Shown here piece after piece: positions 1 through 25,875 of a stretch of 33,317 nt of DNA. The notes under the pieces are model-generated. The model saw nothing but the letters and a program-made list of their open reading frames with translations, ran no database searches and had not been told where the DNA came from. The DNA is from a virus. The position numbers were made by a program, and so were the translations under genes. The first letter of the stretch is position 1, and each line of letters starts with the position of its first letter. The stretch covers positions 1 through 33,317 of IMG/VR virus record IMGVR_UViG_3300005613_000245; one strand, 5' to 3'.

Positions 1-1
1 A

Positions 2-469
2 AATATACGAGTATTTCTTTTTATTAAATTAGAAGAAACGCATAGTGCGGCAGTAGTAGATCCTATAGCAACTGTTCTGGCTAGCCGTATTTTGTTAAAA
101 GTTGGTTATAGTGACGCACCTACTCTTTACAGAAGGACGAGGAATCAATTCTACGTAGTTGATGATGTTAATGGCGATATAGAAGTAGACGGGTTCAAAT
201 ATTCGAGAAGCATTACACCTACAAGCAAGCTTTATATTGATTTTGTAATTGACCAGTATGGGTTAGTTGATAGTCAAGGTGTAGCCCTTGGGAATATGAA
301 TCAGTTACAAATTATGTACAACACAACTTTAAGTACACCTTTAGAAGGTAAAGAGTTTTTTGAAACTAGTGATGTTTCTTCAGAGACATTTTTAGTTACT
401 TTAAATGCAAGTACAATTCAAAGAGCTGGATATATAGAAAATGAGATAAAAACAGTGGTGGAAATCTAA
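2..469 (+). CDS. Partial tail-region protein, 5' end outside window
   Basis: The reading frame is open from base 2 to the TAA at 467-469, so the true start lies upstream and at least 155 residues are present. A TTG at 92 could act as an internal start, but the frame before it reads as ordinary protein (for example the stretch LEETHSAAVVDPIATVLASR), so I treat it as a truncated gene. The product is soluble, mixed alpha/beta in composition, with no signal peptide or membrane span. I do not recognise the family. Its place just before fibre-like genes and a P2-type sheath suggests a baseplate or fibre-attachment component, in the position of the P2 J/I/H genes; this is inferred from position only. 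Confidence 0.6.
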   Translation, partial: NIRVFLFIKLEETHSAAVVDPIATVLASRILLKVGYSDAPTLYRRTRNQFYVVDDVNGDIEVDGFKYSRSITPTSKLYIDFVIDQYGLVDSQGVALGNMNQLQIMYNTTLSTPLEGKEFFETSDVSSETFLVTLNASTIQRAGYIENEIKTVVEI

Positions 470-541
470 GCTAAAATAGAGAATGTAAGTGTTAATTTAT
501 TTTGTGGCGCATAAAAACATAAAAGAAATTATCAAGAAAAT

Positions 542-1801
542 ATGAGTTTAACAGGACGACTAAGCAGATACGACAAGACGGCAAATTATGTAGGTCACCA
601 ATTCTTGACAAAGGATGCTAATGGCTCTTCTCGTATTTTACAAAGTTCAGAATTAAATGAAGTTCAAGAATATATTGATTTTCGTAGTGAGTTACTGGCT
701 TCTGATTTGGTTGCTAACTGTATTCGTAGTGGGGGTTATGACTTTAATAATGCGATATCTGCTGGCGTAGTAACGATGGTCAATTCAGATGTTTTTACGG
801 ACAAACATGTTTTATATGTAGCTGGTGGAACAGTTACTATTCCTGCAAGTGAAAGCGTTAGAGTTGGAGTTAGGTATAACTTGAGTGATATTGATTCTAA
901 TGCTGATAGTGGGCTATTAGGGCAAAGCCCTGTAGGTGTTCGAGGAGAGGATAAACCTGGAGCAGGCAGATTTAAACTTGATGCAACTTGGGGCTATGAC
1001 GCTACAGATACTAGTAAGGTTCCAACTGATTATAACTATCGCGGTTTATGGGCTGATACTACTGTTTATGCCGCTGATGACATAGTACAAGATTCTACTG
1101 GTGCTTATTTCAAGACAGCTGGTGGTGGAACATCTTCTGGCGATGATTCAGATCTAGCAGGTGGTTCAGATACTGGTGTTAGTTGGACGGCTTATATTGG
1201 CACTGATGGTAATACACCATTTACTTATCAAGACACGGGTGCATGGGCTTCAGGTACTACCTATGTAGCTAATGATGTAGTACAAGATTCTCAGGGGCAA
1301 TGGTGGAAGACATTGGCAGGTGGAACTAGCGCTGGGGATGATTCGGATTTGGGTAACAGCTCAGATACTGGTGTAACTTGGTTCAGATTTTATGCTAATT
1401 TCATTCCTTTAATATTTTTCTATGATCGTAACTTTATCGGACAATATCAAATCAAAGGAAACAACCATGCGGCTATAGATTCTAATTATGATGGAATGAC
1501 ATTATTTGGTGGCTTTGTTTACAACTTAGATATGGATAGTCCGTTTGGGGTCACTTTAGATAGTGATGAATTTTTCTTTAATGGTTTCAATTACTTTGGT
1601 GCAGAAAATACCTTAGGTAATATGACAACCACTAACAAGTTAACTATTACGAGGGCGGACCCTGCTTACCGCTTTAATAATACTAGTGACACAGACCTAG
1701 AAGCGGTAGAGGCTTATATTACATTTTTCGTAGAAAAGAATGAAGCTAATTCAAACTTTTTCGAGGTCAAAAAGACAGTAACAAAAGGAAGAAGATATTA
1801 A
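542..1801 (+). CDS. Tail fibre / baseplate-associated protein with two carbohydrate-binding-like repeats
   Basis: This 419-residue protein has an N-terminal region (about 1-160) containing YDKTANYVGHQFLTKDANG and an acidic helix SSELNEVQEYIDF, reminiscent of phage baseplate/fibre-anchor proteins (possibly DUF4815-like; not certain). Residues about 165-285 hold two tandem repeats with the pattern W..T.Y...D.VQDS.G.....GGTS.GDDSDL....DTGV.W, resembling small CBM5/12-type carbohydrate-binding modules rich in aromatics. The C-terminal third is a beta-rich domain. It probably binds a cell-surface glycan and attaches to the tail. It ends one base before the next start, so the two genes are likely translationally coupled. 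Its own start lacks a clear Shine-Dalgarno sequence. Confidence 0.6.
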   Translation: MSLTGRLSRYDKTANYVGHQFLTKDANGSSRILQSSELNEVQEYIDFRSELLASDLVANCIRSGGYDFNNAISAGVVTMVNSDVFTDKHVLYVAGGTVTIPASESVRVGVRYNLSDIDSNADSGLLGQSPVGVRGEDKPGAGRFKLDATWGYDATDTSKVPTDYNYRGLWADTTVYAADDIVQDSTGAYFKTAGGGTSSGDDSDLAGGSDTGVSWTAYIGTDGNTPFTYQDTGAWASGTTYVANDVVQDSQGQWWKTLAGGTSAGDDSDLGNSSDTGVTWFRFYANFIPLIFFYDRNFIGQYQIKGNNHAAIDSNYDGMTLFGGFVYNLDMDSPFGVTLDSDEFFFNGFNYFGAENTLGNMTTTNKLTITRADPAYRFNNTSDTDLEAVEAYITFFVEKNEANSNFFEVKKTVTKGRRY

Positions 1802-3076
1802 ATGTCAATAACTTCAATAGGTACATTTTTAGGTGGTGGCTCAGGTGGGCTCAAAGGAATTGTTAATTTTCCTATCTGTGAGTATAAGGTTCAAAACGGC
1901 TATTTACCTATTTTTGGGTATTCTTCTAAGATTATCCCTGTAAGCTTAAATTTACCTCAAGTAACAAATGCTATACGTGATTTTTCTAGTAGTGGTAATT
2001 TTACTACTGGTAAAGAACTTACTTACAATGAAATAACTTGTCGTGATTTCACTATCAACTCAGGACACCAGTGGACTATCGATGGCTTGAATATTGTTAA
2101 AGCTAGTAGGAATATAACTATTGGTGGCAATGGGATAATAGGTGTCAATAGAAAAAATAGAGGCGTGTTTTTGGATTTACCGTATGATCACAGTCCTAAC
2201 ACTACTAAAGATTCGGGAGCCTCTAATAGTAGTTTTACCGCTCCGCTTGGTGCTTCAGGTGGCGGGCATGGAGATAACCCAACTGAAACCAGTGGGGGGA
2301 TAGTTGATATCCCATCTATATCTGATCTATCTAATGGGATTGGAGGCAATGGCGATATCTGGGATACGGATGACGGACAGGCGAAAGCCCGTGGTCTAAC
2401 CCAAATCAGAGGCTTTGGTGGTGGTCAACCACAGGCGCAAGGCTTCCCTTTTGGACAAAATGGTTTCTATGATGAATATTATGGCTTTGGGCGTTCTAAT
2501 CAGAGGAGTCCATACTTTGTAACTGACAGTGCTGTATCAACAGGTTCTTATTCAAGGGTTCTTGGTCACGGTGGCGCAGCTGGCGGTTTTGAAGCAGGCG
2601 CGAACGATGGTGGTGGAACATGTACGAGTGCTTTGGTACTCATAGCAGATAGTATTGAAATATCTGCAAGTATTGATTTATCAGGCTCTAATGCTGGTGC
2701 TTCTGCTGGTACAAAGATAGACGGTGGCTCTGGTGGTGGTCATGGTGGCTATGTATTCTTATTTGCCAATACAATTAACTTTAACGGTGGGTCTATTGAC
2801 GTATCTGGCGGTAATGGTGGCCCAGGTGGGAATGGTGCAACATTTTCTTCATATGCTGGCGGTGGTGGCGGTGGTGGTCATTGTGGCTTAATTTACGCAC
2901 AAGCATCAAGTTTTTTGACGAATACAACCACCAAAACTGGTAATGTGGGGACGGGTGGTAGCGCTGGCTCACCTTCATTTAATGCATCTTCTGACCCAGC
3001 AGGGGATGGCTCAGATGGCGGCTATGTCCAACCATGGAATACTCATTATGTAGAAGTTGAAGGGAGTCCATTTTAA
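1802..3076 (+). CDS. Glycine-rich tail-tip adhesin-like protein
   Basis: This 424-residue protein is extremely glycine-rich, with blocks such as GGGSGG near the N-terminus and GGGGGGGH near residue 353. The middle contains short beta-strand motifs (ITIGGNGIIGVNRKNRG) and long Gly/Ser/Ala/Asn runs. Polyglycine segments of this sort are known from phage receptor-binding tip proteins, where they can form polyglycine-II sandwiches, and from secreted glycine-rich surface proteins. The gene abuts the upstream fibre gene and lies three bases before the next, so one transcript and coupled translation are likely. I infer a distal host-recognition role; no enzymatic motif is visible. The low-complexity DNA also produces spurious minus-strand reading frames. 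Confidence 0.6.
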   Translation: MSITSIGTFLGGGSGGLKGIVNFPICEYKVQNGYLPIFGYSSKIIPVSLNLPQVTNAIRDFSSSGNFTTGKELTYNEITCRDFTINSGHQWTIDGLNIVKASRNITIGGNGIIGVNRKNRGVFLDLPYDHSPNTTKDSGASNSSFTAPLGASGGGHGDNPTETSGGIVDIPSISDLSNGIGGNGDIWDTDDGQAKARGLTQIRGFGGGQPQAQGFPFGQNGFYDEYYGFGRSNQRSPYFVTDSAVSTGSYSRVLGHGGAAGGFEAGANDGGGTCTSALVLIADSIEISASIDLSGSNAGASAGTKIDGGSGGGHGGYVFLFANTINFNGGSIDVSGGNGGPGGNGATFSSYAGGGGGGGHCGLIYAQASSFLTNTTTKTGNVGTGGSAGSPSFNASSDPAGDGSDGGYVQPWNTHYVEVEGSPF

Positions 3077-3078
3077 TT

Positions 3079-3516
3079 ATGCGTAGAAAAGAATTAGAAG
3101 AGCAGGGATATAGTTACGTAATCGAGAATGGCTTTGGTGGCTATAAGAACGAGGATGGTGCATGGATTGCTCCACCTGGTATGCCACAGAGTTTAAATAA
3201 TGAACCACAAGAAGAGAGAAAGCCTGAAACTGTAACTGTTAGTCCTCTAGATTTCTTCACTCAAGAGATTGCAAACTTAGAACCTTTACAAGCTTTAGAT
3301 ATACAAGAAGCTTTAGAGGAGTATTTAAGTTTACCTAAGAAGAAAGTAGTTGAAGGTTTTATAACCAAAAAAAGTCAAGTTAATTATAAGCAGTTGGTGT
3401 TTTTTGAGGCTGTATTAAATCGTGATAAAGAGTCTGGTGATTTAGACCAAAGAATCGCCGATATTTTTTTAAAAAAAATACAGGAATATAAAAACGCTGT
3501 AAAAAATGAAGAATAA
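3079..3516 (+). CDS. Unknown tail-region protein, possible fibre chaperone by position
   Basis: This 145-residue acidic protein starts two bases after the adhesin stop. Residues 1-35 have an aromatic/glycine-rich beta-like segment (YSYVIENGFGGYKNEDGAW) and residues 55-140 look helical and charged. I recognise no family. P2-like phages place a fibre-assembly chaperone (gene G) between the fibre gene H and the sheath gene FI, which is the slot this gene occupies; that is an inference from order, not from sequence similarity. The C-terminal coding DNA has poly-A runs (ttttttaaaaaaaata) that could be prone to polymerase or ribosome slippage. Confidence 0.5.
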   Translation: MRRKELEEQGYSYVIENGFGGYKNEDGAWIAPPGMPQSLNNEPQEERKPETVTVSPLDFFTQEIANLEPLQALDIQEALEEYLSLPKKKVVEGFITKKSQVNYKQLVFFEAVLNRDKESGDLDQRIADIFLKKIQEYKNAVKNEE

Positions 3517-3535
3517 AAGGTTATAAAATAAAGAT

Positions 3536-5122
3536 ATGGGAAATGCAATCACAACCGAAACGATAGTAACAAGCTCAGGTGTTGAAACGACACAGCAAAA
3601 TGCTTTTAGTGTTATCGGTATTATTGGAACAGCTGGTAAAGGTAATGTTGGAGAAGTCCAAGGTTTTACTGGTGACGGTACAACAATTTTTGAAGAATAC
3701 GGTGAATACAAAGCAGATGGAGCTACAATTCCTGATGCAGCTGATTTGATTAGAAAGTCTGGAACATTTACAGCATGTGTAATTAACGTTTGTGATCCGA
3801 CTACACATAATGATACGGTGACTGGTGAAACAGCTACTATTAATGGTTCTAATGAGGCTCAATTAGCGAATGGTTATATAAGTTCTGTTACGTTAGATAC
3901 CGATTTTGTAGTAACTAAAACATTTCTAGCGGATGAGACAATCACTTTACCTAGTGGTATTACTAGTGTAGACGCTGTTAAATCTTCAGATGGAGTAACT
4001 ACTTATGTGGGTGGTGGAACAGACTATACAGTTGCTGGTAATGTTATTACGCGAGAAGGCGCGGGCTCTATCGAGGCTGGTGAAATAGTCCTTGTAGAAT
4101 ACACAGCTACAGCGGTGTTGGACACAGACTATACTATCGATGCAGATAATGGAGTTATAAATAGAGTTTCAACAAGTACTATTATTGATAGATTAGCTAC
4201 AATTTCAGTTAATTATACTTTTGTTGATTTTAGCGCTGTGACACAGACCGATGTAGTTAATGCAATCACTGAATTTAAAAATTCACAGGCAAAAACAGGA
4301 TTTACACCGAGAATCTTTATTGCTCCTAGCTTTGCAGGTATCAAGCCTGATATCAACACTTTAGATCCAGTGGCTAGCGCGCTGATCACGCAAGCAAATA
4401 ATCTAAAGGGCACTGTATATGTAGACGTTGAGGAAACGACAGTAAGTGCCGCTATAAACTATAGGAATGATTTTAATAGCAAGAATATTAGATTGTTTAA
4501 CGATAAGCCTGGGTTTACTCCTTTAACTGGTTCAGGCACTGTGTTTAGAAGTTTTGCAGCGGTAGCCGCTGGAATGCGTGCGGCTTTAGACAACACAGCT
4601 TCTTTAGCTCAAGGTTTAACTGGTTCATTTATCCCTGACTGTATAGCTAGTGAGCGTAAATATGACTTCAATAATAGTGCTACTAGCTCAGTAGGTACTT
4701 TAAATTCGAATAACATAACCACTATCGTTAATGATGGGGGAAGTAGATTTAAGGTTATTGGTGAAAACACTGGAACAAATGAAGAGTTTTTCACTTTTGA
4801 AGGTAGTAAGCGTATCACTGATTTCTTAGAAGTTAGAGCGCAAGAGATTGCAGGTGGCTTCCTTGGACAACCATTAACAGGAGCTAACCTAGATGCTATC
4901 CAAGCGGCTATTTCTGATGATCTAGATAGATACAAGGGCACACTGCTAAATGGTGCAACTAGGGTTACTTTGCCGCCTGAAAAGAACTCAACAGCTAATT
5001 TAAATCAAGGTTTAATTTACGCTAAATTAGAGTTCACACCAGTAGGAACAATTACAAGAGTAACTACAGAACTTGCTTTAACAACTAGGTTCTTAGGTTC
5101 AATATTGGCAGATAGTGTATAG
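3536..5122 (+). CDS. FI: Contractile tail sheath protein
   Basis: The 528-residue product has the layout of P2-type sheath proteins: an N-terminal strand region (TSSGVETTQQNAFSVIGIIGTA) that opens the alpha/beta sheath fold, a variable beta-rich protrusion (about 95-215), a core with TPRIFIAPSFAG and PVASALITQANNLKG, and a C-terminal domain (about 430-528) with LDAIQAAISDDLDRYKG and the terminal strands LIYAKLEFTPVGTI and LTTRFLGSI that interlock with the tube and neighbouring sheath subunits. The protein polymerises around the tail tube and contracts on infection. The tube gene follows 18 bases later, as in P2. Identification is by motif, length and gene order. Confidence 0.88.
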   Translation: MGNAITTETIVTSSGVETTQQNAFSVIGIIGTAGKGNVGEVQGFTGDGTTIFEEYGEYKADGATIPDAADLIRKSGTFTACVINVCDPTTHNDTVTGETATINGSNEAQLANGYISSVTLDTDFVVTKTFLADETITLPSGITSVDAVKSSDGVTTYVGGGTDYTVAGNVITREGAGSIEAGEIVLVEYTATAVLDTDYTIDADNGVINRVSTSTIIDRLATISVNYTFVDFSAVTQTDVVNAITEFKNSQAKTGFTPRIFIAPSFAGIKPDINTLDPVASALITQANNLKGTVYVDVEETTVSAAINYRNDFNSKNIRLFNDKPGFTPLTGSGTVFRSFAAVAAGMRAALDNTASLAQGLTGSFIPDCIASERKYDFNNSATSSVGTLNSNNITTIVNDGGSRFKVIGENTGTNEEFFTFEGSKRITDFLEVRAQEIAGGFLGQPLTGANLDAIQAAISDDLDRYKGTLLNGATRVTLPPEKNSTANLNQGLIYAKLEFTPVGTITRVTTELALTTRFLGSILADSV

Positions 5123-5140
5123 AGAGGAAATTAAACAGAG

Positions 5141-5650
5141 ATGACATTTAGAAAACCGACAATTAGCACAAGATACAGTGGCTCACTCAGAGATAGTCAA
5201 GATCGCTTAAACTTTGATGGAACTATCTTGAATTTCACACCACCTAGTTTTGAGGGTGAAACAGCTGAATATCCAAGTGGTGGCTTAGCTGGCGTTGGTG
5301 GATATCCAACGGGTAGAGAATCAGGTGTCAAGCTTGCAAGTTTTACTTTAGGTGAAGATTCAATTAAGATCCATAATTTTCAACAAAGAGGTAAGAATGG
5401 AGAGCAACAACAATTAATTATTAGTTCTATTGAGCTAGATACTAATACTGGAACTAAAGTTAAAAGAACAAGGACAATGAGAGGCTGGTTAAACATGGCA
5501 GCTGGTCAAAATTTAACTCAAGGTGAGATTCAGCAGTTAAACTGTGAGTTTACTTGTTATTACTACCAAGACCGTAAGGGAAGCGATATTTTCACTTGGG
5601 ATATAACTGATGATGATGATATAGATTTACTACTACAAGGAAATCTTTAA
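5141..5650 (+). CDS. FII: Major tail tube protein
   Basis: The 169-residue protein directly follows the sheath gene and has the size of P2 FII-type tube proteins. It is beta-rich, with a pattern of basic and polar strands (KVKRTRTMRGWLNMAAG, CEFTCYYYQDRKGSD) and an acidic tail DITDDDDIDLLLQG near the C-terminus. It would form stacked hexameric rings of the inner tube through which DNA passes. A purine-rich ribosome site (agaggaaa) lies 12-19 bases before the ATG. The order sheath-tube-chaperone-tape measure supports the call strongly. Confidence 0.85.
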   Translation: MTFRKPTISTRYSGSLRDSQDRLNFDGTILNFTPPSFEGETAEYPSGGLAGVGGYPTGRESGVKLASFTLGEDSIKIHNFQQRGKNGEQQQLIISSIELDTNTGTKVKRTRTMRGWLNMAAGQNLTQGEIQQLNCEFTCYYYQDRKGSDIFTWDITDDDDIDLLLQGNL

Positions 5651-5670
5651 TTTAAATAATGGGGGAATTG

Positions 5671-6054
5671 ATGACATATAAATATACTTATAAATTAGTA
5701 GAAGCTTTAGAGGATGGTACAGAACTTGTTTCTTACAATGGCTTAAAGCCTAAGCATTTAAAGATGGCTGAAAAGTTATCTCCAGGTGGGACAGATGATC
5801 AAGATGTATTTGAAAAGATACTAGTAGATATTTCAGATTTAGAATCTAATCAAATTGAAGATTTAAGCTTAATAGATCATGAGCACTTGTATGAGGAGTT
5901 AATGCTTAAGCAGATTATCCCCTTTCGTAATAAAAGGCTTTCAGTTACCTTGGCGATGCTTAAAGAGCAAGGTTTATACGAGGGAATCAAAGATCAAGCC
6001 ATTAAGTCTACTGAGCCTAAAGAAGTCTCTGAAGATGATTTTAACGAAGTTTGA
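5671..6054 (+). CDS. E: Tail assembly chaperone (E-like, first frame)
   Basis: This acidic 127-residue protein sits between the tube and tape-measure genes, where tailed phages encode the assembly chaperone pair. I chose ATG 5671 because GGGGGA precedes it at 5661-5666; the upstream in-frame ATG 5659 has no ribosome site and adds only four residues. The sequence resembles E-type chaperones in size, in its start YKYTYKLVEALEDG, and in helical content with a conserved-looking stretch HLYEELMLKQIIPF. The frame ends at TGA 6052-6054, overlapping an open second frame from 5903 to 6346. A programmed frameshift could therefore make a longer E-E' protein; a +1 or -2 shift would be needed. Confidence 0.72.
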   Translation: MTYKYTYKLVEALEDGTELVSYNGLKPKHLKMAEKLSPGGTDDQDVFEKILVDISDLESNQIEDLSLIDHEHLYEELMLKQIIPFRNKRLSVTLAMLKEQGLYEGIKDQAIKSTEPKEVSEDDFNEV

Positions 6055-6346
6055 TTTTCGTTACTTTAAGAATTATGTAAAATCTTTATTTGGTAAATTA
6101 GTTACTCAAGAGTTGTTTGTTGAGCATTCTTGGACTGACGAAATTCTTAATCCTTATCAAGTCTGCACTGAGCTTATTGAGCTGTGGATTATCCAGTTAA
6201 GCAGGCATACTCATAATAGTTTTAAGGAATTACGTGATCTAGAGATTGATCGCTTAAGAGAGTATTATGATGACTTTGTGTGGATTTTAGAGCAAGAAAG
6301 AGAAGAGCAAGAAAGGCAGATAAAAGCAGCGCAGAGGAAGGGGTAA
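6035..6346 (+). CDS. Tail assembly chaperone second frame (E'-like), probably made as an E-E' fusion
   Basis: This frame is open from 5903 to 6346. An ATG at 6035 would give a free 103-residue protein, but only a weak ribosome site (gaag) precedes it. The product is helical and charged, ending with EQEREEQERQIKAAQRKG, and lies immediately before the tape-measure gene. In P2 the E' sequence is reached by ribosomal frameshifting from E. Here the second frame is +1 relative to E, so the shift must be +1 or -2, not the -1 of P2 or lambda. A UCUCU at 6026-6030 would let a Ser tRNA re-pair perfectly after a -2 slip, and GTT TGA at 6049-6054 is an alternative +1 site. Confidence 0.6.
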   Translation: MILTKFDFRYFKNYVKSLFGKLVTQELFVEHSWTDEILNPYQVCTELIELWIIQLSRHTHNSFKELRDLEIDRLREYYDDFVWILEQEREEQERQIKAAQRKG

Positions 6347-6357
6347 AATTAGTATAG

Positions 6358-8073
6358 ATGGCTAATGGTCAACAAGCAAAAGTAACATTAAGCGCTGAAC
6401 TAGCAAGTAATTACGTTCAGTCATTTGATAAGGCTATTGCTAGGGCTAGAGAGCTTCAAAAGAGTTTAGGTAAGCTTGGTACTGCTCAAAAGAAGATGGC
6501 TCAAATGGCAGATCGTGCACAAAAGGAAGTACGTGAATCTGGTCAAGCTGCTCAGAAGAGTTCTACTCAAGTAAAAAAATACTCTCAATCTGTTACTCAA
6601 GCTAGTGCAGGCACTGGTAAGTTAGTAAAGCAAGTTGCTGGTTTAGCTGCAGCTTATTTAAGTGTTCAAGCCGCAATAGGTTTTGTTGGTGATAGTTTAC
6701 GCTTAGCAGGTGAATTTAGTACTCAAATTGCTACAGCAGGGGCAGTTAGTAGTGCTACAGCTCAAGAATTAAGTAATTTAACAGATATTGCTAGAGAGAT
6801 GGGTGCTAGTACTGAATTTACAGCTAGTCAAGCAGCTGAAGCATTAACGTTTTTAGGTCGCGCGGGTGTCCAAGCCGCTGACCAAGTTGCTGTATTACCT
6901 AAAGTATTAGATTTAGCCACTGCTTCGGGAATGGATTTAGCGGGAAGTACAGATATTTTACTTAGTACAATGGCTCAATTCCAAAAGCCTTTAAGTGATG
7001 TAACCAATGTTATGGACGTGATGGTTAAAACTGTTAATACTAGTAAAAATGACATGGTGCAATTTGCTGAGGCTATGAAGTTTCTAGGGCCTACAGCTAA
7101 AGCACTTGGAATTAGTTTAGAGGAAGCTAGTGCTATTATCGGTATCCTTGGTAATAATGGTTTAAATGGTTCTATAGCCACTAGGGCTTTAGGTACTTCT
7201 TTGACTAGGATTTTAAAACCTACTAAAAAAATGCGTGAAGAAATGGCTAAGTATAATCTTGAGTTTACAAAGGATGGTCAAATTAAGGGTTTTGCTGAAA
7301 TAATTGATGAATTAAGCACTAAATTAGCAGGTGCTACAGATGTCCAAAAACAAGCTGCTTTAGCTACTATATTTGGTGGTGAAGCTATTCAAGAGTTAAA
7401 TATTTTAATGAGTGCTGGTGCTGATACGATAGTTGACTACACTGGGAAGTTAGCTAACAGTGCAGGGACTGCAAAAACCACAGCGGAAGCAATAAGGAAT
7501 GTTTTAGGTGGCTCTTTAAAGACCTTGAAGAGTGCTTATGAAGAAGTACAACTAGCTTTTATTGCTGCTTTTGGCGATGATATGAAAACTAGTGTTGAAA
7601 TTATGACGCAGGCAATGCGTGATTTTGGTGCAACATTAAAAGACCCTGAAGTACAAGCAGGGTTAAGTATGACATTAAAAACTTTAAATATGATTGCTCA
7701 GGTTATTGGTTTTATTGCTAAGTCCACGGCAAGGGCAGGTGGTAAGGCTCTTGGGGTCATTGTTGATCCAATAAAGTTTGCTAGCAGAACGGTTACCCAG
7801 GGAATAGGTAGTGCGGCAGAAGCATATAAATTTGAGAATTTACCTAATGTACCTCAATCTATTAAAGCACCAGCTTCTGTTACTTCTGAAGCACTTAGGG
7901 CGAGTACACCTAATATCGGCAAGGGTATTGGAGCAGTTAGTATATCTAGCCCTATTAATATTAATGTAAATGGCAGTACTGACACTAATAGTTTGGCTCA
8001 GCGAGTGTCAGACGCACTGGGTGGGCGCAATGATGACTTAGTATCTCAAATTAAAAGGAGCACTCAATTATGA
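6358..8073 (+). CDS. T: Tail tape measure protein (TP901-type core)
   Basis: The 571-residue protein begins with a helical, coiled-coil-like region (about 10-75, rich in Lys/Gln/Ala), then a hydrophobic segment near 90-115. It then has the TP901 tape-measure core (about 120-400), seen in LTDIAREMGASTEFTASQAAEAL, FLGRAGVQAADQVAVLPKVLDLA and GLNGSIATRALGTSLTRI. The C-terminus is polar. It sets tail length and is ejected during infection. At about 0.15 nm per residue it predicts a short tail of roughly 85 nm. Its stop overlaps the next start (ATGA at 8070-8073), which couples it to the U gene. The leader has GGGG followed by TAAAAT, a motif shared with two later genes. Confidence 0.88.
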   Translation: MANGQQAKVTLSAELASNYVQSFDKAIARARELQKSLGKLGTAQKKMAQMADRAQKEVRESGQAAQKSSTQVKKYSQSVTQASAGTGKLVKQVAGLAAAYLSVQAAIGFVGDSLRLAGEFSTQIATAGAVSSATAQELSNLTDIAREMGASTEFTASQAAEALTFLGRAGVQAADQVAVLPKVLDLATASGMDLAGSTDILLSTMAQFQKPLSDVTNVMDVMVKTVNTSKNDMVQFAEAMKFLGPTAKALGISLEEASAIIGILGNNGLNGSIATRALGTSLTRILKPTKKMREEMAKYNLEFTKDGQIKGFAEIIDELSTKLAGATDVQKQAALATIFGGEAIQELNILMSAGADTIVDYTGKLANSAGTAKTTAEAIRNVLGGSLKTLKSAYEEVQLAFIAAFGDDMKTSVEIMTQAMRDFGATLKDPEVQAGLSMTLKTLNMIAQVIGFIAKSTARAGGKALGVIVDPIKFASRTVTQGIGSAAEAYKFENLPNVPQSIKAPASVTSEALRASTPNIGKGIGAVSISSPININVNGSTDTNSLAQRVSDALGGRNDDLVSQIKRSTQL

Positions 8074-8669
8074 GCGTAGGTAATTTATTATTCACTAATC
8101 CTGCTAAAGCATTTCCTCTTAAGCCTGTGATGGTTTGGGGTGATTATGTTTTCAAGTATTCAACTTTTGCACCTAGTCAAATGGATTGGTTAGAAGAATA
8201 TCGTTGGACTCAAATAGATAGGGTGGGTGCTAGACCGATTCATCAAGCGATGGGTGTAGGTCGTCAAACTTTAATTTTGCAGGGGAAGGTAATTCCACTA
8301 ATGCCTATCAGGTCAAGCACTTTAGGCGGTATCCAAATTGGCTTAAATGTATTAAATAGCAACACTGGGATAGTTGGTACTAAAAGCTTACAAAAGCTTG
8401 AATTTAAGGCACAGAGACAGGACGTAGAAGATCTTACTGATGGTAATGGTAATTATTACGGCAGATGGTTTATAGATAGTATTCAAAAGTCACAGAGGGC
8501 TATTAGGTCTAATGGCATGGGTGCTGATCAGGATATTACTGTGCGTATGGTTCGCTTTGGTGATGATAAGCTAACTGATGCTTCTGTGGAAAACTTACTT
8601 GATCGTTTATTTGATTCCGTTGGTGATGTTCTTCGAGGGAAGAACCCATTAAGAGGTTTTGGAGGTTAA
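8070..8669 (+). CDS. U: P2 gpU-like tail protein
   Basis: The 199-residue protein matches the pattern of P2 gpU: EYRWTQIDRVGARPIHQAMGVGRQ.. corresponds to the gpU stretch DYRW..NSRVGKRDAFQFLGVGEE, followed by LQGKVIP and later YGRWFIDSIQKSQ (gpU has YGMYVISRVSE). It has an N-terminal extension of about 30 residues and a charged C-terminal tail. U-family proteins act at the tail tip or in baseplate assembly. It overlaps the tape-measure stop by four bases and is followed by X three bases after its stop, exactly as in the P2 T-U-X-D order. Confidence 0.85.
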   Translation: MSVGNLLFTNPAKAFPLKPVMVWGDYVFKYSTFAPSQMDWLEEYRWTQIDRVGARPIHQAMGVGRQTLILQGKVIPLMPIRSSTLGGIQIGLNVLNSNTGIVGTKSLQKLEFKAQRQDVEDLTDGNGNYYGRWFIDSIQKSQRAIRSNGMGADQDITVRMVRFGDDKLTDASVENLLDRLFDSVGDVLRGKNPLRGFGG

Positions 8670-14889: not shown

Positions 14890-15303
14890 ATGAAATACAC
14901 GAAAGAAAATTTAATTGAAGATTTTAAGAACGCAAAAATAACTATGGACTTTTTTAATTCGTTTAAGTACGATGAAGAAGGGGATTGGGTTTCTGTCAAA
15001 TTCGAAAAGTTAACCCCTAAATGTTTTTCCACTTATTTGTACATTAAATCAATAGATTTAGAGGTTCATTATTCTTCTAGAACTCAACATATAGACATGT
15101 TTTATGTTGACTATGAAGATGAATCTCACGAATTGCAATATATGGATAAAGAAGAGGCTGAAGATATTTTATCCGTTCTATGGTCTCTTGATGAGTTTCT
15201 GGAAACTTTTAAAGACCTTTCTGAATCCTTAATCCTAAAGGAAGTGAAAGGCTTAACTGAAAAGCTTATCGGGGGAATAGATGAACAACAGACAAAGAAA
15301 TAA
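14890..15303 (+). CDS. Unknown protein with replaced C-terminus
   Basis: The 137-residue acidic protein (TKENLIEDFKNAKITMDFFN...; YVDYEDESHELQYMDKEEAEDIL) is of unknown function. Its last 21 codons from 15241 (EVKGLTEKLIGGIDEQQTKK) are repeated almost perfectly at 16139, where the frame continues EVKGLTEKLIGRIEEQRIDDY and on to PVEFNRVF...TVDF. The simplest reading is that the ancestral gene ended with that longer tail and was interrupted by insertion of the PP-loop gene, which brought a substitute 3' end. The present protein is thus probably shortened by about 22 residues. Confidence 0.55.
   Translation: MKYTKENLIEDFKNAKITMDFFNSFKYDEEGDWVSVKFEKLTPKCFSTYLYIKSIDLEVHYSSRTQHIDMFYVDYEDESHELQYMDKEEAEDILSVLWSLDEFLETFKDLSESLILKEVKGLTEKLIGGIDEQQTKK
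15241..15289 (+). repeat. Direct repeat, left copy, flanking the PP-loop gene
   Basis: These 49 bases match 16139-16187 at 47 positions; the first 33 bases are identical. The left copy forms the 3' end of the 14890 gene and includes the first start codon of the PP-loop gene. Confidence 0.9.
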
Positions 15304-16111
15304 AACAAGAGCAAGGGATAGAATGGGAAAAATGGTAGATTACATAGTTAGTTATTCAGGGGGGTTAGGGTCTTTCTTTGCAGCTTATAAATTAAAAAAA
15401 GAAAAACCAAATGCCGTAATCAAATTAGTTTTTTGTGATACAAAAATTGAAGACAAAGATTTGCATAGGTTTTTAGAAGAATCAGCTACAGTTTTAGGGT
15501 TACCTTTAATTAAAATTGAAGATGGCAGAACTCCATGGGAACTTTTTAGCGATATGGGGTTTCAAGGCAACTCAAGAATTGCACCTTGCTCAAGTCAATT
15601 AAAAAGAAAAGTTTTTAACCGTTGGTTAGCTGATAATTATCCAGATCAAGATTTTGTTGTAGTTATGGGTATATCTCACGAAGAATCAGAAAGGCTTGAT
15701 AGGGCTAGAAAAAACAACAAGTATGAAATTATTGCACCATTATGCGAAAAGCCTTATTACTTTAAAGAAGATCAAGAAAGAATTTTAATGTTTTGCAATT
15801 TAAAAAAACCACGGCTTTATGATCTAGGTTTTCCACATAATAATTGTGGGGGTTTTTGTGTTCGCACGGGGTTAGCTCAATTCGAACTACTACACAGAAC
15901 TTTCCCTGAAAGGTTTAAATACCACGAAGAACAGCAACAAAAGTTAATGTCGGATGTCCCAAAAGCGAATAAACCATTTTTAAGGAAAACAATAGGTGGA
16001 AAACTAAACTACATTACTTTAAAACAATTTAGGGAAAACTATTTAGAATTAAACTTGCAAGAAAAATTTGATTTTGGCGGGTGTGGTTGCTTTGTTGATG
16101 ATGAAATTTAA
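15281..16111 (+). CDS. PP-loop ATPase (PAPS-reductase / N-type ATP pyrophosphatase family)
   Basis: The 276-residue protein has the PP-loop signature SYSGGLGSFFAA (S26-GGLG-S31), which binds the ATP pyrophosphate in the adenine-nucleotide alpha-hydrolase superfamily (PAPS reductase, DndC, tRNA thiolases). Later cysteines cluster in APCSSQLKRK, NNCGGFCVRTG and GGCGCF, suggesting a metal or Fe-S site, as in several sulfur-transfer members. The substrate cannot be told. ATG 15281 follows GGGGGA but lies in the duplicated sequence; ATG 15323, preceded by AAGGGA, would give a 262-residue protein beginning GKMVDYIVSYSGG and may be the real start. The surrounding 49-base repeat marks it as an inserted cargo gene. 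Confidence 0.78.
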   Translation: MNNRQRNKTRARDRMGKMVDYIVSYSGGLGSFFAAYKLKKEKPNAVIKLVFCDTKIEDKDLHRFLEESATVLGLPLIKIEDGRTPWELFSDMGFQGNSRIAPCSSQLKRKVFNRWLADNYPDQDFVVVMGISHEESERLDRARKNNKYEIIAPLCEKPYYFKEDQERILMFCNLKKPRLYDLGFPHNNCGGFCVRTGLAQFELLHRTFPERFKYHEEQQQKLMSDVPKANKPFLRKTIGGKLNYITLKQFRENYLELNLQEKFDFGGCGCFVDDEI

Positions 16112-16138
16112 TTTTAATAACTAAAAAAAGGATAAAAT

Positions 16139-16187
16139 GAAGTGAAAGGCTTAACTGAAAAGCTTATCGGGCGAATAGAAGAACAAC
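16139..16187 (+). repeat. Direct repeat, right copy, flanking the PP-loop gene
   Basis: This is the right copy of the 49-base repeat (47 matches to 15241-15289). Its reading frame continues into 26 further codons with no counterpart at the left copy, which indicates that it is the original gene end. Confidence 0.9.
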
Positions 16188-16267
16188 GAATTGACGATTA
16201 TAAAGTGCCTGTAGAGTTTAATAGAGTTTTTAGTGAGAATATTGAAGATTTAACGGTGGATTTTTAA
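16139..16267 (+). pseudogene. Displaced 3' end of the 14890 gene
   Basis: The frame reads EVKGLTEKLIGRIEEQRIDDY, continues for about 20 residues and stops at TAA 16265-16267. The first part duplicates the end of the 14890 gene, in the same reading frame. It looks like the original C-terminal end cut off by insertion of the PP-loop gene. A GTG at 16142 with AAGGA nine bases upstream could still allow a 41-residue peptide to be made, so expression as a small protein is not excluded. Confidence 0.7.
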
Positions 16268-16302
16268 AAAGGAATATTAAATTTATAAAAGTACGGATAA
16301 GT

Positions 16303-17381: not shown

Positions 17382-17390
17382 TGGTATATT
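17382..17390 (+). promoter_or_regulatory. Extended -10 promoter of the metalloprotease gene
   Basis: TG-G-TATATT at 17382-17390 with no convincing -35 (TTTACG is 19 bases upstream). The predicted start near 17397 leaves a leader of about 13 bases containing AGGGGGA. The sequence TATATTGATATCAG matches the small RNA F promoter at 13 of 14 positions. Confidence 0.6.
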
Positions 17391-17409
17391 GATATCAGGG
17401 GGAATACCG

Positions 17410-18495
17410 ATGTACCAATTAATTTTTTTTTTACTTTTAATTAGCGTAAGCGTGGTTAGTGCTAAAGACTATGATGGGGTTTTGGTTTTAGATACGGCGC
17501 GGGCTCTTGAAGTAAATAAAGGAGCCTTAGATCAATATTCTAATCAATGGCAATGCTTAGAGGGTTCTTGTATGCAAATTAATCTTAAGCCGCTAAAGTG
17601 GGATAGTTCGGTAACCCCTAAGTTGGTTTTCGATTCAGATTTTGATATAAATGACATTAACCATACAGTATCTGAGTTAAATAGTGCTTTATACGACCAA
17701 GTAAATATAACCTCAGAACAAAGAGTATTAAGTGTAGATGATCCAACTCCAGCGAATTCAGAAATTCATATCGTTGTAGATAATGATATGCCTTCACTCG
17801 GTTTAGCTGAACGGATTTTCCTTTTTTATACAGAAACTGACAATTATTGGTTAATTAATAGAGGTGTTTGCTTTGTTAGATTAGCAGATTTAGAGGGAGG
17901 TAGGCTCCAGGAGGTTATACTTCATGAGATTTTACATTTATTTGGGCTAGATCACTCTCAAGGGTATGCTTATTGGACTAAAAATAATGGAGATTGGCAA
18001 AGAGACACCAATCAAGCTTTGAGACCAACAATGTATCCTTTAATTTGGGCTAGTGCTGATGGTTACTTGTCATTTGAAGATAAACATTTTTTAAGAGAAT
18101 CTTTCTCCGTTTATGGGTGTGAAACAGGTTCACTTGAGGGCAACGCTTATTTTAATGGTGAGCCGATGACTGGGATAATTTTAAACTTAAAAAACAATAG
18201 TGATAACTCTAAGAGCTTAACTTATCCAATAGATAGGTTAAAGCAGGGTGATGGCTCATTTAGATTAGATGGTTTACCAAGTGGAAGATATACAATCCGT
18301 TTTGAAGAACAGCGTTGTAACAATTTAGGAGCAAGCTCTTCTATTGGGGCTTATGATTGTGAAGATTCAAACTTTACTGAAGTTAGATTTTTAAATAAAA
18401 CTGCTGGTAATGATTTATCTAAAAAGAAAAATGGCAGAAAATCAACAATCAAAATTAAGCCATGCGAAACAAAAAGTATTATAATAGGCAATTAA
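17410..18495 (+). CDS. Exported metzincin/matrixin-like zinc metalloprotease
   Basis: I start at ATG 17410, eight bases after AGGGGG. The 361-residue product opens with a signal peptide (YQLIFFLLLISVSVVSA, cleavage before KDYDG), so it is exported. Residues 172-182 are HEILHLFGLDH, an exact HExxHxxGxxH zinc site, and PTMYP at 206-210 is a matrixin-type Met-turn, 26 residues after the last zinc histidine (longer than in animal MMPs). After about residue 235 a domain with GSLEGNAYFNGEPMTGIIL and SFRLDGLPSGRYTIRFE resembles a carboxypeptidase-regulatory/Cna-B-like beta sandwich. Several cysteines fit periplasmic disulfides. It has its own promoter and looks like cargo acting on the host envelope, host proteins or competitors. 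Confidence 0.82.
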   Translation: MYQLIFFLLLISVSVVSAKDYDGVLVLDTARALEVNKGALDQYSNQWQCLEGSCMQINLKPLKWDSSVTPKLVFDSDFDINDINHTVSELNSALYDQVNITSEQRVLSVDDPTPANSEIHIVVDNDMPSLGLAERIFLFYTETDNYWLINRGVCFVRLADLEGGRLQEVILHEILHLFGLDHSQGYAYWTKNNGDWQRDTNQALRPTMYPLIWASADGYLSFEDKHFLRESFSVYGCETGSLEGNAYFNGEPMTGIILNLKNNSDNSKSLTYPIDRLKQGDGSFRLDGLPSGRYTIRFEEQRCNNLGASSSIGAYDCEDSNFTEVRFLNKTAGNDLSKKKNGRKSTIKIKPCETKSIIIGN

Positions 18496-18497
18496 GG

Positions 18498-18526
18498 TTA
18501 AAATTTTCAAAACAATAAGCTATAAT
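18498..18526 (+). promoter_or_regulatory. Promoter of small RNA A
   Basis: A perfect TATAAT at 18521-18526 with a weak -35 (TTAAAA, 18498-18503; 17-base spacer), beginning three bases after the metalloprotease stop. Confidence 0.5.
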
Positions 18527-18532
18527 TAAAAG

Positions 18533-18653
18533 TCTAGTAGGTACTAGCGTGTGTCGAAAGCACGTAAAAGGAGAATAATTATTAACAAATTATTATTCCT
18601 AGTGTCACTAGATTTAGTGTTGTGAAGCTCTCAAGAAATTGGGAGCTTTTTTT
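18533..18653 (+). ncRNA. Candidate small RNA A
   Basis: About 120 nt between a TATAAT box and an intrinsic terminator. Predicted elements are CTAGTA/TACTAG (18534-18547), CGTG/CACG (18548-18564), a long A/T-rich stem AGGAGAATAAT...ATTATTATTCCT (18569-18600), and the palindrome TAGTGTCACTA. AAGGAG is followed by ATT codons that could open a 15-residue hydrophobic peptide, but ATT starts are very rare. No terminator separates it from the metalloprotease gene, so it may double as that mRNA's 3' UTR. Confidence 0.5.
18625..18653 (+). terminator. Terminator of metalloprotease / small RNA A
   Basis: AGCTCTC (18626-18632) pairs with GGGAGCT (18641-18647) across an eight-base loop, followed by seven T residues. 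Confidence 0.8.
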
Positions 18654-18654
18654 G

Positions 18655-18683
18655 TTGACACATAAGTTGAAATATTTTATATT
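18655..18683 (+). promoter_or_regulatory. Promoter of small RNA B
   Basis: Consensus TTGACA (18655-18660), 17-base spacer, TATATT (18678-18683). The -35 begins two bases after the previous terminator's T-tract. Confidence 0.7.
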
Positions 18684-18689
18684 TATTTG

Positions 18690-18764
18690 TAGGGCTCCTA
18701 CCCTATTTTTATTCATAAATCTCATATCCCCTAGGTTTTGTTTTTTCCCCTAGGGGATTTTTTT
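18690..18764 (+). ncRNA. Candidate small RNA B
   Basis: A 75-nt unit directly behind a near-consensus promoter. It has a 5' hairpin TAGGG-CTCCTA-CCCTA (18690-18705), a single-stranded A/T-rich middle, and a 10-bp terminator stem with T-tract. No start codon with a ribosome site lies inside. The simple architecture (5' hairpin, open linker, terminator) resembles regulatory RNAs, though no target or known family can be assigned. Confidence 0.55.
18726..18764 (+). terminator. Terminator of small RNA B
   Basis: A perfect 10-bp stem, ATCCCCTAGG (18726-18735) with CCTAGGGGAT (18749-18758), then a run of T to 18764. Confidence 0.85.
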
Positions 18765-18841
18765 ATACGTAATTTTTTTTAATTTTTACCCGTATCACTA
18801 GACAAGTGGGTAAAATTCTTGATTATTTACTCACGGTTTTA

Positions 18842-19100
18842 TTTGACGGCTATTTAATTTACATTCCTACTACATGGCAATAGCCAATTCTAGTCTAAGT
18901 ATCCTTGTTTGATCGCTATTTAACTATTGGATTTTACTATTTACTTATTTTTTTAAAACTAGTTTTGATTGCTTACTAATTTTCTTAAAACGGGTTACAC
19001 ATTGTTACTTAATTTTCTAAAATTAGTTAGTTGCTGACCTTACTTTTTTAAAATAGAAGTAATAAATATTCCTTTATATAAATATAAAAATAAAGATAAT
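18842..19100 (+). other. Candidate replication origin: phased repeats plus AT-rich segment
   Basis: TTTGACGGCTATTTAA (18842) recurs as TTTGATCGCTATTTAA (18908), 66 bases apart. GGCTATT (18848) and AATAGCC (18879) form an inverted repeat. Four related elements beginning TTACT, then T-rich and AAAA, start at 18941, 18973, 19005 and 19040, spaced 32, 32 and 35 bases, that is about three helical turns. They are followed by an extremely AT-rich stretch (19056-19100) suited to strand opening. No gene lies here, and the next protein downstream looks like a tandem winged-helix initiator. The iteron-origin reading is an inference; the repeats are imperfect. Confidence 0.45.
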
Positions 19101-19243
19101 TAGGAGAGGGGTATAGACACATTGCATTAGGCTCTACGGAAACAGAGAAGGGGTTATTAATTAAGAAGAGAGATATAAATTTTTGTAATTTTATATAGTT
19201 ACGCTTAAAATCGGGCTTTATTTTTGACAATTTCTTTTATGTT

Positions 19244-19273
19244 TTGGCGTGCCACAAAGTTTTTTGGTAAAAT
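19244..19273 (+). promoter_or_regulatory. Promoter of small RNA C
   Basis: TTGGCG (19244-19249), 18-base spacer and TTGGTAAAAT, with -10 at 19268-19273. A second possibility, TTGACT (19276) with TAGTAT (19299), lies just downstream. Confidence 0.5.
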
Positions 19274-19279
19274 TGTTGA

Positions 19280-19361
19280 CTTTCTTTTTTTTGTTAGCTA
19301 GTATGTCTTTAAACCTAGGGGGTAATTTTTCTGAGCTTCCATTATCCTCTAGTAATTTTTT
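19280..19361 (+). ncRNA. Candidate small RNA C
   Basis: About 82 nt (or about 50 nt if the downstream promoter is used) from the TGGTAAAAT promoter to a terminator-like hairpin. The 5' part is T-rich and probably unstructured; the rest is the terminator stem. No reading frame with a ribosome site. The weakest member of the array because its start is ambiguous. Confidence 0.4.
19315..19361 (+). terminator. Terminator of small RNA C
   Basis: CTAGGGGGTAAT (19315-19326) pairs with ATTATCCTCTAG (19341-19352) over 12 positions, two of them G-U, followed by TAATTTTTT. Confidence 0.6.
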
Positions 19362-19362
19362 C

Positions 19363-19391
19363 TTGACTTTTTGAAATATTGTTTTTATTAT
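19363..19391 (+). promoter_or_regulatory. Promoter of small RNA D
   Basis: TTGACT (19363-19368), 17-base spacer, TATTAT (19386-19391). The -35 starts two bases after the T-tract of unit C. Confidence 0.65.
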
Positions 19392-19397
19392 ATTAAT

Positions 19398-19494
19398 AGT
19401 GAGTCTTAAAAGGTTTGGCTAGGTACTCTGAAACTTAGCTGGCTCCATTTTTAGGAGAGTGGATCTTCCTTCTTGCGTCCACTCTCTTTTTTTT
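19398..19494 (+). ncRNA. Candidate small RNA D
   Basis: A 97-nt unit with an internal hairpin GCTAGGT-ACTCTGAA-ACTTAGC and a strong terminator. TAGGTACT also occurs in small RNA A, where it forms part of a stem. The sequence from the -10 into the RNA (TTATATTAATAGTGA) resembles that of small RNA F (TTATATTGATATTAGTGA). No coding potential seen. Confidence 0.55.
19455..19494 (+). terminator. Terminator of small RNA D
   Basis: A perfect 9-bp stem, GAGAGTGGA (19455-19463) with TCCACTCTC (19478-19486), then eight T residues. Confidence 0.85.
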
Positions 19495-19504
19495 AAAATT
19501 TTTA

Positions 19505-19533
19505 TTGAAAACATCATATTTTTGTGGTAAAAT
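19505..19533 (+). promoter_or_regulatory. Promoter of small RNA E
   Basis: TTGAAA (19505-19510), 17-base spacer, GTGGTAAAAT with -10 TAAAAT at 19528-19533 and the extended TG. Confidence 0.7.
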
Positions 19534-19539
19534 GTAGGT

Positions 19540-19617
19540 ATAAATTATGCCCTGATCTGCAAATTATGGGTTTTATAGAGAGAGGTTTTAGTTGTTTTGA
19601 GCCTCTCTCTTTTTTTT
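19540..19617 (+). ncRNA. Candidate small RNA E
   Basis: A 78-nt unit between an extended -10 promoter and a perfect terminator. The 5' half carries a direct repeat (AAATTATG at 19542 and 19561) with CCC and GGG that can pair across a short loop. It lies immediately upstream of the candidate initiator gene. It could be an independent sRNA, a priming or copy-control RNA, or an attenuated leader from which read-through reaches that gene. Confidence 0.55.
19578..19617 (+). terminator. Terminator of small RNA E
   Basis: A perfect 8-bp stem, GAGAGAGG (19578-19585) with CCTCTCTC (19602-19609), then eight T residues. Confidence 0.85.
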
Positions 19618-19620
19618 GTT

Positions 19621-19649
19621 TTTAAATAGTTTAAAAATTGTGGTATATT
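19621..19649 (+). promoter_or_regulatory. Promoter of the candidate initiator gene
   Basis: TTTAAA (19621-19626), 17-base spacer, GTGGTATATT with -10 TATATT at 19644-19649. The predicted leader is about 22 bases and has no Shine-Dalgarno sequence. Confidence 0.6.
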
Positions 19650-19678
19650 TAATTTAGCAGATCGACTTCAAGACAACT

Positions 19679-21175
19679 ATGAAAAATTTACGACTTAAAA
19701 ACATAGAAGAAGCAAAGCGAGGCGAAGAGCTAAAGCCTAAGAACGTAAGCTATTTATACCAATGGCATGACCCTAGGTTTATAACTTGGGTTAATAATCA
19801 AGATGTAATTAGTTTTAAAAATAAGGTTTATTTACTGTTTCTTTTGTGTCAGAGCGTTTATTTAGTAGCTAAAGGAGTGATAACCCCTAAAGCGTTAAAA
19901 GCAATCGTTTATATCGCTTCTAAGACAGTTTTAATCAAGGATGGTGTTCAGTGGAAGATATTAAGCCAAAGGTCTAGTTATGTTCACTGTGATGTATTTA
20001 GATCGTGTACGTCAGCTTCTTATGCTTTCAAGGAATGTACAGACCTTGGGCTCATCAAACGTGTCTCTAGTGGACAACAAAGCTATGCTCACGCAGTAGA
20101 TTTTTATCAATTAAGGTCACTTTTATACAACAATGGGATAGAAACTAAGTTTAATAACAAGTTTTTGGATAAAGAAAGTAAAGATTATGAATTGAATTAT
20201 GAGACTGTATGTCGTTTGTTTTATCAGAATATATCTAATCTACTCGAGCATTTTAATACTTCAAGATTAAGAATTGCTCTTTTTGTCTTCAAAGAATGTA
20301 TTTTAAATAAAAAGTGGGTTGATGTTTCTAGCTTTTGGCGAATTGGTCAAGAAATTAATTTAAGTTGTCATTCAGTTATTGAGAATATCCAGAATTTAAG
20401 AAACTTACAGGTACTTGACGTAAGAGATGGAGTTAAAAAGAGTAAACACTTTGTATTTGCTCCTGGAGATACTTATTTAAGTGAGAATAATCAAATATTA
20501 ATGGCTGGTGAAGCTTACAAGAAGTGTTTATCAAGAAAAGAAACTAGTTTAGAGAAAGCTATTTTATCTTTGAACTGTTCGGAAAATTCTAACAGTTGGG
20601 ATTTCAGTGATTATAGTTTTATAAAAAAATTACAAGAGCGTGGTGAGTGTTTTTATAGAAATCAAAGTAGTTTAGGTGTTTATGGTGACACAAGTGACTT
20701 AGCTGGCAAGTACGACAAGGCATTAGGTGCATATGCTTACTTAGCGGCTAGTAATTCTAGAGACGTTTTAGAAGTAATTGTGGAATGGTGTAAACAAGCT
20801 TATCCATTTACCAAAGAAGATGATGTTAAGAAGCTTTCTAAAGTAATTAAAGATGGTTTAGTTAACTACATAGATAGTAATTGGTATGAAAGAAAATCTA
20901 TTTTATTTAATTTAGATAAAAAGATTGCTATGGCATTTGATTTAGATCAAGTACATATAGTGAGCCAAGTTGGTTATAAAATTCTTTGTGATATTTACCT
21001 GGAGAGGGGGTTAATCGTTGATAATTTTAGTTTAATTGACGAGAATTTAAGTAAGTTATCTGAGGCTTTTGAGTATCATAAGCAAAACGATGAGCAAAAG
21101 AAACTATCATTTTTAAATAAAAAAAGTTGCAATTCCTCTAAAGTTGGGTATAATGAAAATAGACTTGGAGGTTGA
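19679..21175 (+). CDS. Candidate replication initiator with tandem winged-helix domains
   Basis: The 498-residue protein is basic at its N-terminus. It contains two segments that read like winged helices: residues about 90-132 (SCTSASYAFKECTDLGLIKRV) and about 213-262 (FWRIGQEINLSCHSVIENIQ, then NLRNLQVLDVRDG). The C-terminal half is helical (ALGAYAYLAASNSRDVLEVI, YERKSILFNLDKKIAMAF). Tandem winged helices are the DNA-binding plan of iteron-binding Rep proteins, and phased repeats lie upstream. That, plus its place at the head of the replication genes, supports initiator; a transcriptional regulator is the alternative. The ATG has no ribosome-binding site, unusual among its neighbours, which hints at translational control. 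Confidence 0.5.
   Translation: MKNLRLKNIEEAKRGEELKPKNVSYLYQWHDPRFITWVNNQDVISFKNKVYLLFLLCQSVYLVAKGVITPKALKAIVYIASKTVLIKDGVQWKILSQRSSYVHCDVFRSCTSASYAFKECTDLGLIKRVSSGQQSYAHAVDFYQLRSLLYNNGIETKFNNKFLDKESKDYELNYETVCRLFYQNISNLLEHFNTSRLRIALFVFKECILNKKWVDVSSFWRIGQEINLSCHSVIENIQNLRNLQVLDVRDGVKKSKHFVFAPGDTYLSENNQILMAGEAYKKCLSRKETSLEKAILSLNCSENSNSWDFSDYSFIKKLQERGECFYRNQSSLGVYGDTSDLAGKYDKALGAYAYLAASNSRDVLEVIVEWCKQAYPFTKEDDVKKLSKVIKDGLVNYIDSNWYERKSILFNLDKKIAMAFDLDQVHIVSQVGYKILCDIYLERGLIVDNFSLIDENLSKLSEAFEYHKQNDEQKKLSFLNKKSCNSSKVGYNENRLGG
21127..21154 (+). promoter_or_regulatory. Internal promoter for the 21179 regulator operon
   Basis: TTGCAA (21127-21132), 16-base spacer and TATAAT (21149-21154) within the end of the initiator gene, followed by the leader TTGGAGGTTGATTAATG. 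Confidence 0.6.
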
Positions 21176-25802: not shown

Positions 25803-25832
25803 GTGTTAAAAAACTTTATGGCGTGGTAAAAC
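25803..25832 (+). promoter_or_regulatory. Early promoter for the exported-protein operon
   Basis: GTGTTA (25803-25808), 18-base spacer beginning AAAAACTTTA and GTGGTAAAAC with -10 TAAAAC (25827-25832). A near-duplicate of the -35/A-tract part, TTGTTAAAAAGTTTT, lies 20 bases upstream (25783), perhaps a second -35 or an operator. Confidence 0.6.
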
Positions 25833-25875
25833 ATAAACAGAAATAACATTTAGTAAAAATTTGGAGGTAATTAAA

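Follow-up and report, generated by a model that had tools for sequence, protein, structure and literature searches.

A packed array of short promoter-RNA-terminator units around an origin-like element of a phage genome, and its probable part in the control of the adjoining gene

What could be the function of a noncoding stretch of about 1.2 kb that is placed, in a phage genome, between the genes for tail and lysis and those for replication? The sequence analyzed here, which we call the window, is an IMG/VR virus record of 33,317 bases, described as 'linear' and with 34.5% GC. Tail proteins of the myovirus type (sheath, tape measure, hub) are present among the genes up to 11573, an endolysin gene is located at 16893, and in gene 17389-18495 an apparent zinc-protease motif (HEILHLFGLDH) was recognized by eye. 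The noncoding stretch, 18496-19678, lies between this last gene and gene 19679. The genes for DnaB, SF2 helicase and primase, together with an SSB-like one, are located on the 3' side of gene 19679, and all belong to the + strand. Within 18496-19678 there are no + strand ORFs of at least 50 aa. We propose that the stretch contains an array of short transcription units which probably helps to control gene 19679 and perhaps phage DNA replication. The features on which this reading is built are the following (positions of the window):

18498..18653, + strand, unit A: promoter 18498-18526 (TTAAAA-17-TATAAT), RNA about 18533-18653, terminator stem 18624-18649 (-13.9 kcal/mol)
18655..18765, + strand, unit B: promoter 18655-18683 (TTGACA-17-TATATT), RNA about 18690-18765, terminator stem 18726-18758 (-15.9 kcal/mol)
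18941..19036, iteron-like direct repeats, three of 32 bp (18941, 18973, 19005), with a partial fourth near 19040
19041..19100, AT-rich stretch (90% A+T), adjoining the iterons
19183..19361, + strand, unit C: candidate promoters at 19183 (TTGTAA-17-TAAAAT, a possible one), 19244 (TTGGCG-18-TAAAAT, extended -10) and 19276 (TTGACT-17-TAGTAT), RNA from about 19218, 19280 or 19311 to about 19361, stem 19315-19352 (12 pairs, -11.8 kcal/mol) with TAA before the T-run
19363..19496, + strand, unit D: promoter 19363-19391 (TTGACT-17-TATTAT), RNA about 19398-19496, terminator stem 19454-19487 (-15.5 kcal/mol)
19505..19618, + strand, unit E: promoter 19505-19533 (TTGAAA-17-TAAAAT, extended -10), RNA about 19540-19618, terminator stem 19577-19610 (-17.2 kcal/mol)
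19621..19678, + strand, promoter and leader of gene 19679: promoter 19621-19649 (TTTAAA-17-TATATT, extended -10)
19679..21175, + strand, gene 19679 (498 aa)

A weighted scan of -35 box, spacer and -10 box gave seven promoters with a score of at least 8 on the + strand of 18496-19678 and none on the - strand, and 200 dinucleotide shuffles gave a mean of 1.46 and a maximum of 6 such sites. Strong + strand intrinsic terminators, searched with an energy-based scan, number five in the whole 33 kb, four of them within the array (A, B, D and E), and in 150 shuffles of the region the mean was 0.08 and the maximum 1. These two independent counts, of promoters and of terminators, show that the array is not a chance pattern. 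A simpler promoter scan on both strands of 17500-20500 found 21 sites against 12.2 expected, and on the - strand of the region there were neither promoters scoring at least 7 nor terminators. The promoters of E (score 12.3) and B (12.2) are the second and third best of the + strand, and that of D scores 10.9. The units are closely packed, with the -35 boxes of B, D, E and the next gene placed 2, 2, 9 and 2 nt past the preceding T-tract. Compared with shuffles, the predicted folds of A, B, D and E have z-scores of -4.2, -3.4, -2.7 and -4.2, the RNA of A being predicted as a three-way junction and that of E, of about 78 nt, as two hairpins. Unit C does not fold better than its shuffles (z -1.0), and the TAA before the T-run weakens its terminator, which the stricter scan left out. 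Taking these features together, we consider it very probable that units A-E correspond to real transcripts.

As an earlier note made from the sequence alone had claimed, the stretch is an array of promoter and terminator units, packed head to tail, whose putative RNAs have no coding potential. Its number of five is well founded for A, B, D and E, but C is weaker, with an uncertain start, an imperfect terminator and a poor fold score. The word TAGGTACT, which the note had pointed out as common to A and D, has five occurrences in the window, of which three fall within genes, and is not significant. The covariance-model search that it had suggested for the units matched no Rfam family, and in the whole window there were no matches above the gathering cut-off (riboswitch, 6S, GOLLD/ROOL and CRISPR repeat families, among others); the sub-threshold matches (BTnc049, Phe_leader and others) were far below their cut-offs and were taken as chance. 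No tRNA or tmRNA genes were found by ARAGORN, inspection by eye gave no small ORF within the units with an SD at the proper distance, and loop-loop kissing between units gave nothing strong.

It can also be mentioned that a TGTGGTA-type extended -10 is common to the promoters of E, C and gene 19679, and that the promoters at 13763, 23739, 27089 and 31569, which belong to other operons, are similar among themselves (TTGwcAAAAAaCTTTT..GTGGTAwAAT). A further compact unit, the sixth, measures about 73 nt and is located at 13756-13650 on the - strand, with a TTTACA-16-TATAGT promoter (extended -10), a terminator at 13685-13655 and a fold z-score of -3.2.

Between units B and C lies an element that looks like an iteron origin. 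The three repeats share 58 of 72 identities, compared with 48 in the best of 1000 shuffles (0/1000 as good), and they were also recovered as repeat family D1. Regularly spaced direct repeats next to AT-rich DNA, the arrangement of iteron-type replicons, are thus present, and the AT-rich stretch is a possible unwinding element; judging from this layout, replication may start there. No DnaA-box-like sites were found.

Gene 19679 is the first gene past the origin-like element, and from this position we guess that it is a candidate replication initiator. No homologues of its product were found in Pfam, NCBIfam, PHROGs, PDB, phages or plasmids, and both AlphaFold (AF2) models were too poor for a fold search; a tandem winged-helix look, noticed by eye, was not confirmed. 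The earlier description of the array as standing ahead of the replication genes is loosely right: the genes for DnaB, helicase and primase begin 5-11 kb further downstream, and the adjoining gene itself matches no family. Transcription from the 19621 promoter would give a leader of 23 nt (about 19656-19678) with no SD-like motif, a situation shared by 10 of 45 genes, 19679 among them, and GGAGG-type sites are present on many genes.

It is in this leader that a candidate target of the array was found, since RNA E can pair with it in three places:

19553..19560, + strand, segment of E hairpin 1, TGATCTGC: pairs with 19657-19664 (8 bp, -12.6 kcal/mol)
19571..19578, + strand, E linker, TTTTATAG: pairs with 19677-19684, at the start codon (8 bp)
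19589..19601, + strand, E terminator loop, TAGTTGTTTTGAG: pairs with 19667-19679 (13 bp, -15.1 kcal/mol)

The match of the terminator loop extends to the A of the 19679 start codon. The order of the paired segments is the same in the two RNAs, and therefore the pairing would take place loop by loop, in the manner proposed for C4 RNA (PMC12197685), and not as a single long duplex. Considered singly, the hairpin-1 segment and the terminator loop are equalled by about 0.2% of the 27-nt segments of the window; both main loops together were matched in 0/20000 leader shuffles and by no other 27-nt segment of the window. With loops set by hand, none of 10663 background segments was as good as E with 19679, and this pair was the first of 225 combinations of unit and gene. 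Since the hand-set loops had been chosen after the match was seen, the test was redone with mechanical loops, that is, loops taken from the predicted fold: again E with 19679 was the first of the 225 pairs, and none of 5332 background segments was as good, which corresponds to p < 0.04 (approximately) after correction for the 225 pairs and to p < 2e-4 if the adjacent gene alone is tested. On these counts the complementarity goes beyond chance. It should be noted that, with mechanical loops, the raw p of C with gene 8888 is almost equal to that of E with 19679, which is a warning that the latter may also be chance. In cofolding with the 19679 leader C gains more than E (-9.7 vs -5.0), in a method that cannot represent kissing loops.

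Since RNA E can pair with the start of gene 19679, the array is probably involved in the control of this gene; whether E itself acts on 19679 we regard as an even matter. The mechanism that we propose is that the five short units, each separately started and terminated and all directed towards 19679, flank the iteron and AT-rich element, and that the hairpin-1 loop, linker and terminator loop of E would pair with the leader and start codon of 19679 and so block the entry of the ribosome. In this E would resemble the C4 RNA of P1/P7. The output of E would be proportional to the template copies, and for this reason E would exert a negative feedback on 19679 and hence on phage replication. Taken as a whole, an origin-linked control region with E as an antisense repressor of 19679 and with feedback on replication has, in our opinion, somewhat less than an even chance of being correct, and the part of it by which the circuit controls replication is put forward tentatively. 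The regulatory or origin-control function suggested in the earlier note is favored among its proposals and partly supported, by the complementarity of E to the 19679 leader and by the position of the iteron and AT-rich element inside the array.

Other explanations of the array have to be weighed against this one. The units could encode RNAs directed against host transcripts or RNA-binding proteins, as sponges or decoys, grouped for co-expression only, the match of E with 19679 being secondary or due to chance. Phage RNAs with host targets are known (PMC12197685), the five RNAs are distinct and have little in common, and pyrimidine-rich loops resembling an anti-SD are predicted in B (CUCCU) and in D (CUUCCUUC); we nevertheless hold this explanation to be unlikely, for E pairs with the adjoining gene 19679 better than every background segment does. 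When the loops of B and D were compared with phage targets none survived correction, and the pair of B with 23387, promising with hand-set loops, dropped to p 0.02 with mechanical loops. Another possibility is that the promoter-terminator pairs act through DNA and transcription, with short aborted transcripts that open, supercoil or prime the origin and terminators that exclude polymerases. The position of units on both sides of the iteron and AT-rich element, all in one direction, would agree with it, and there are precedents in the transcription of the lambda origin (PMC12197685) and in the RNA-dependent origins of mycobacterial prophages (PMC7157519). However, the folds predicted for A, B, D and E, strong and distinct as they are, and the complementarity of E would be left unexplained, and the origin on which this explanation depends is itself a putative one, so that we consider it improbable.

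The complementarities might, instead, be DNA sites of a regulator, such as inverted operators or copies of a promoter motif. An inverted repeat, which reaches upstream of the expected transcript start, is made up of GATCTGCAAATTA (start of E) and TAATTTAGCAGATC (19679 promoter), and 19225-19266 resembles, on the - strand, a promoter-like motif also present upstream of 25876. Nonetheless, the 13-nt match of the E terminator loop to the start codon would find no explanation, and the - strand copy is poor as a sigma70 promoter, in a region where the - strand has no site scoring at least 7; this makes DNA sites quite unlikely to be the answer. Finally, AT-rich noncoding DNA might show promoter- and terminator-like matches with no function at all: such DNA gives many weak promoter matches, the region is not enriched at the lower cut-off (nine sites scoring at least 6 vs 7.8), and unit C is weak. 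As none of the 200 shuffles equals the region at higher scores and the terminators are far above expectation, a non-functional array is very hard to believe.

Regarding complementarities to other genes, a segment of the array upstream of C, at about 19217..19260 on the + strand, is a near-complement, of about 40 nt, to the leader of tail gene 542 (partner 498-541; -42.5 kcal/mol, BLAST E 6.1e-6). A transcript from the 19183 promoter would be a C RNA of 144 nt with this segment as its 5' end. Alternatively, the segment may be a promoter-like DNA motif in inverted copy, given that one related to it is found upstream of 25876 (25805-25845). In contig L088, a relative of the phage, the 542 leader differs at the complementary part, and therefore the site is not conserved there. 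On a more ambitious proposal, the phage replicon would be governed by five discrete and independently transcribed small RNAs on the two sides of an iteron origin, and several of these would act as antisense RNAs on leaders of the same phage (E on 19679, long C on 542). The origin RNAs would in this way report copy number and tune replication and tail genes, a proposal that appears to us unlikely. Separately, the 5' part of C (19280-19316) pairs well with tail gene 8888 around its start (-27.4 kcal/mol), the second of the 225 pairs and borderline after correction.

P1, P7, N15, P4 and PLE offer known cases of RNAs that match leaders of their own element (PMC7567579). E and C4 (RF01695, with counterparts in N15 and P4/phiR73) are alike in that their loops contain short segments able to pair with a phage leader near the start; the target of C4 is an antirepressor gene, whereas the putative target of E is the gene next to the origin-like element. 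C4 of P1 and P7 is encoded upstream of its target and in the same direction, as E is, and it is processed from the target's own transcript, unlike E, which has its own promoter and terminator. The complementary segments of C4 are located in loops and its target is around the ribosome binding site (PMC12197685). The RF01695 model gave no match in the window at the gathering score, nor up to E 5 in 18400-19750, and gene 19679 showed no family match to an antirepressor (icd/ant), in a search whose sensitivity is limited by the absence of homologues. By the covariance model, the array falls outside the C4 family.

Plasmid systems such as CopA/CopT, Inc RNA and RNAI resemble E as short structured RNAs with a copy-proportional repression of an origin-linked gene, which for E is a proposal; those RNAs are countertranscribed and fully complementary, whereas E is upstream, on the same strand and with interrupted complementarity. 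As no opposite-strand promoter was found, the array is not a countertranscribed plasmid control. OOP of lambda, of about 77 nt, is like E a short terminated RNA near an origin and an initiator gene (both putative here), but it is a single unit on the opposite strand that overlaps its target cII, and the array has five units on the same strand. OOP acts as an antisense RNA (PMC12197685). In extrachromosomal mycobacterial prophages, a noncoding RNA from the origin region is needed for prophage replication (PMC7157519); these RNA-dependent/RepA origins have one RNA, while here there is an array, and no partition genes were recognized in the window. The IIR transcript of PLE and the ncRNAs of ICP1 are abundant noncoding RNAs homologous, in antisense, to leaders of genes of their own element (PMC7567579), and PLE IIR is one transcript between inverted repeats, in contrast to the series of promoter-RNA-terminator units described here. 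In a limited literature search, no array was found in which some five complete units surround an origin. Phage small RNAs have mostly been reported singly, many of them with no known target, and a locus of 1.2 kb that combines some five complete units with a candidate origin and a candidate self-target would offer a compact system in which to ask whether phages, as plasmids do, meter their own replication by antisense RNA.

The phage is a near-singleton, with replication and tail proteins about 25% identical to their counterparts in named phages. Contig L088 (10 kb) is a true relative, but its match covers only 1-8429 of the window; contig L089 has one gene in common with the window and, on inspection, no comparable small-RNA array; HJ05 is a distant relative. 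No relative covering the array was found in viral contigs with 19679, 17389, the helicase and a DnaB alignment as queries, nor one spanning it with the RecF-like 27499, the tail sheath, the primase and the PAPS-reductase-like protein. The same was true of genome contigs (queries 19679 and helicase) and of phages and plasmids, searched by DNA and by protein. Apart from this, the PAPS-reductase-like gene 15338-16111 has 82% protein identity to L089:9998-10771, in a virus contig otherwise unrelated, which suggests a recent horizontal transfer or a common host. Around this gene, GGCTTAACTGAAAAGCTTATCGGG.GAATAGA.GAACAACGA recurs at 15258-15310 and 16149-16190 (approximate coordinates, by eye), and the stretch 3' of gene 15281 (within 16112-16302) duplicates the junction of genes 14890/15281, as if gene 15281 had been inserted with a duplicated flank.
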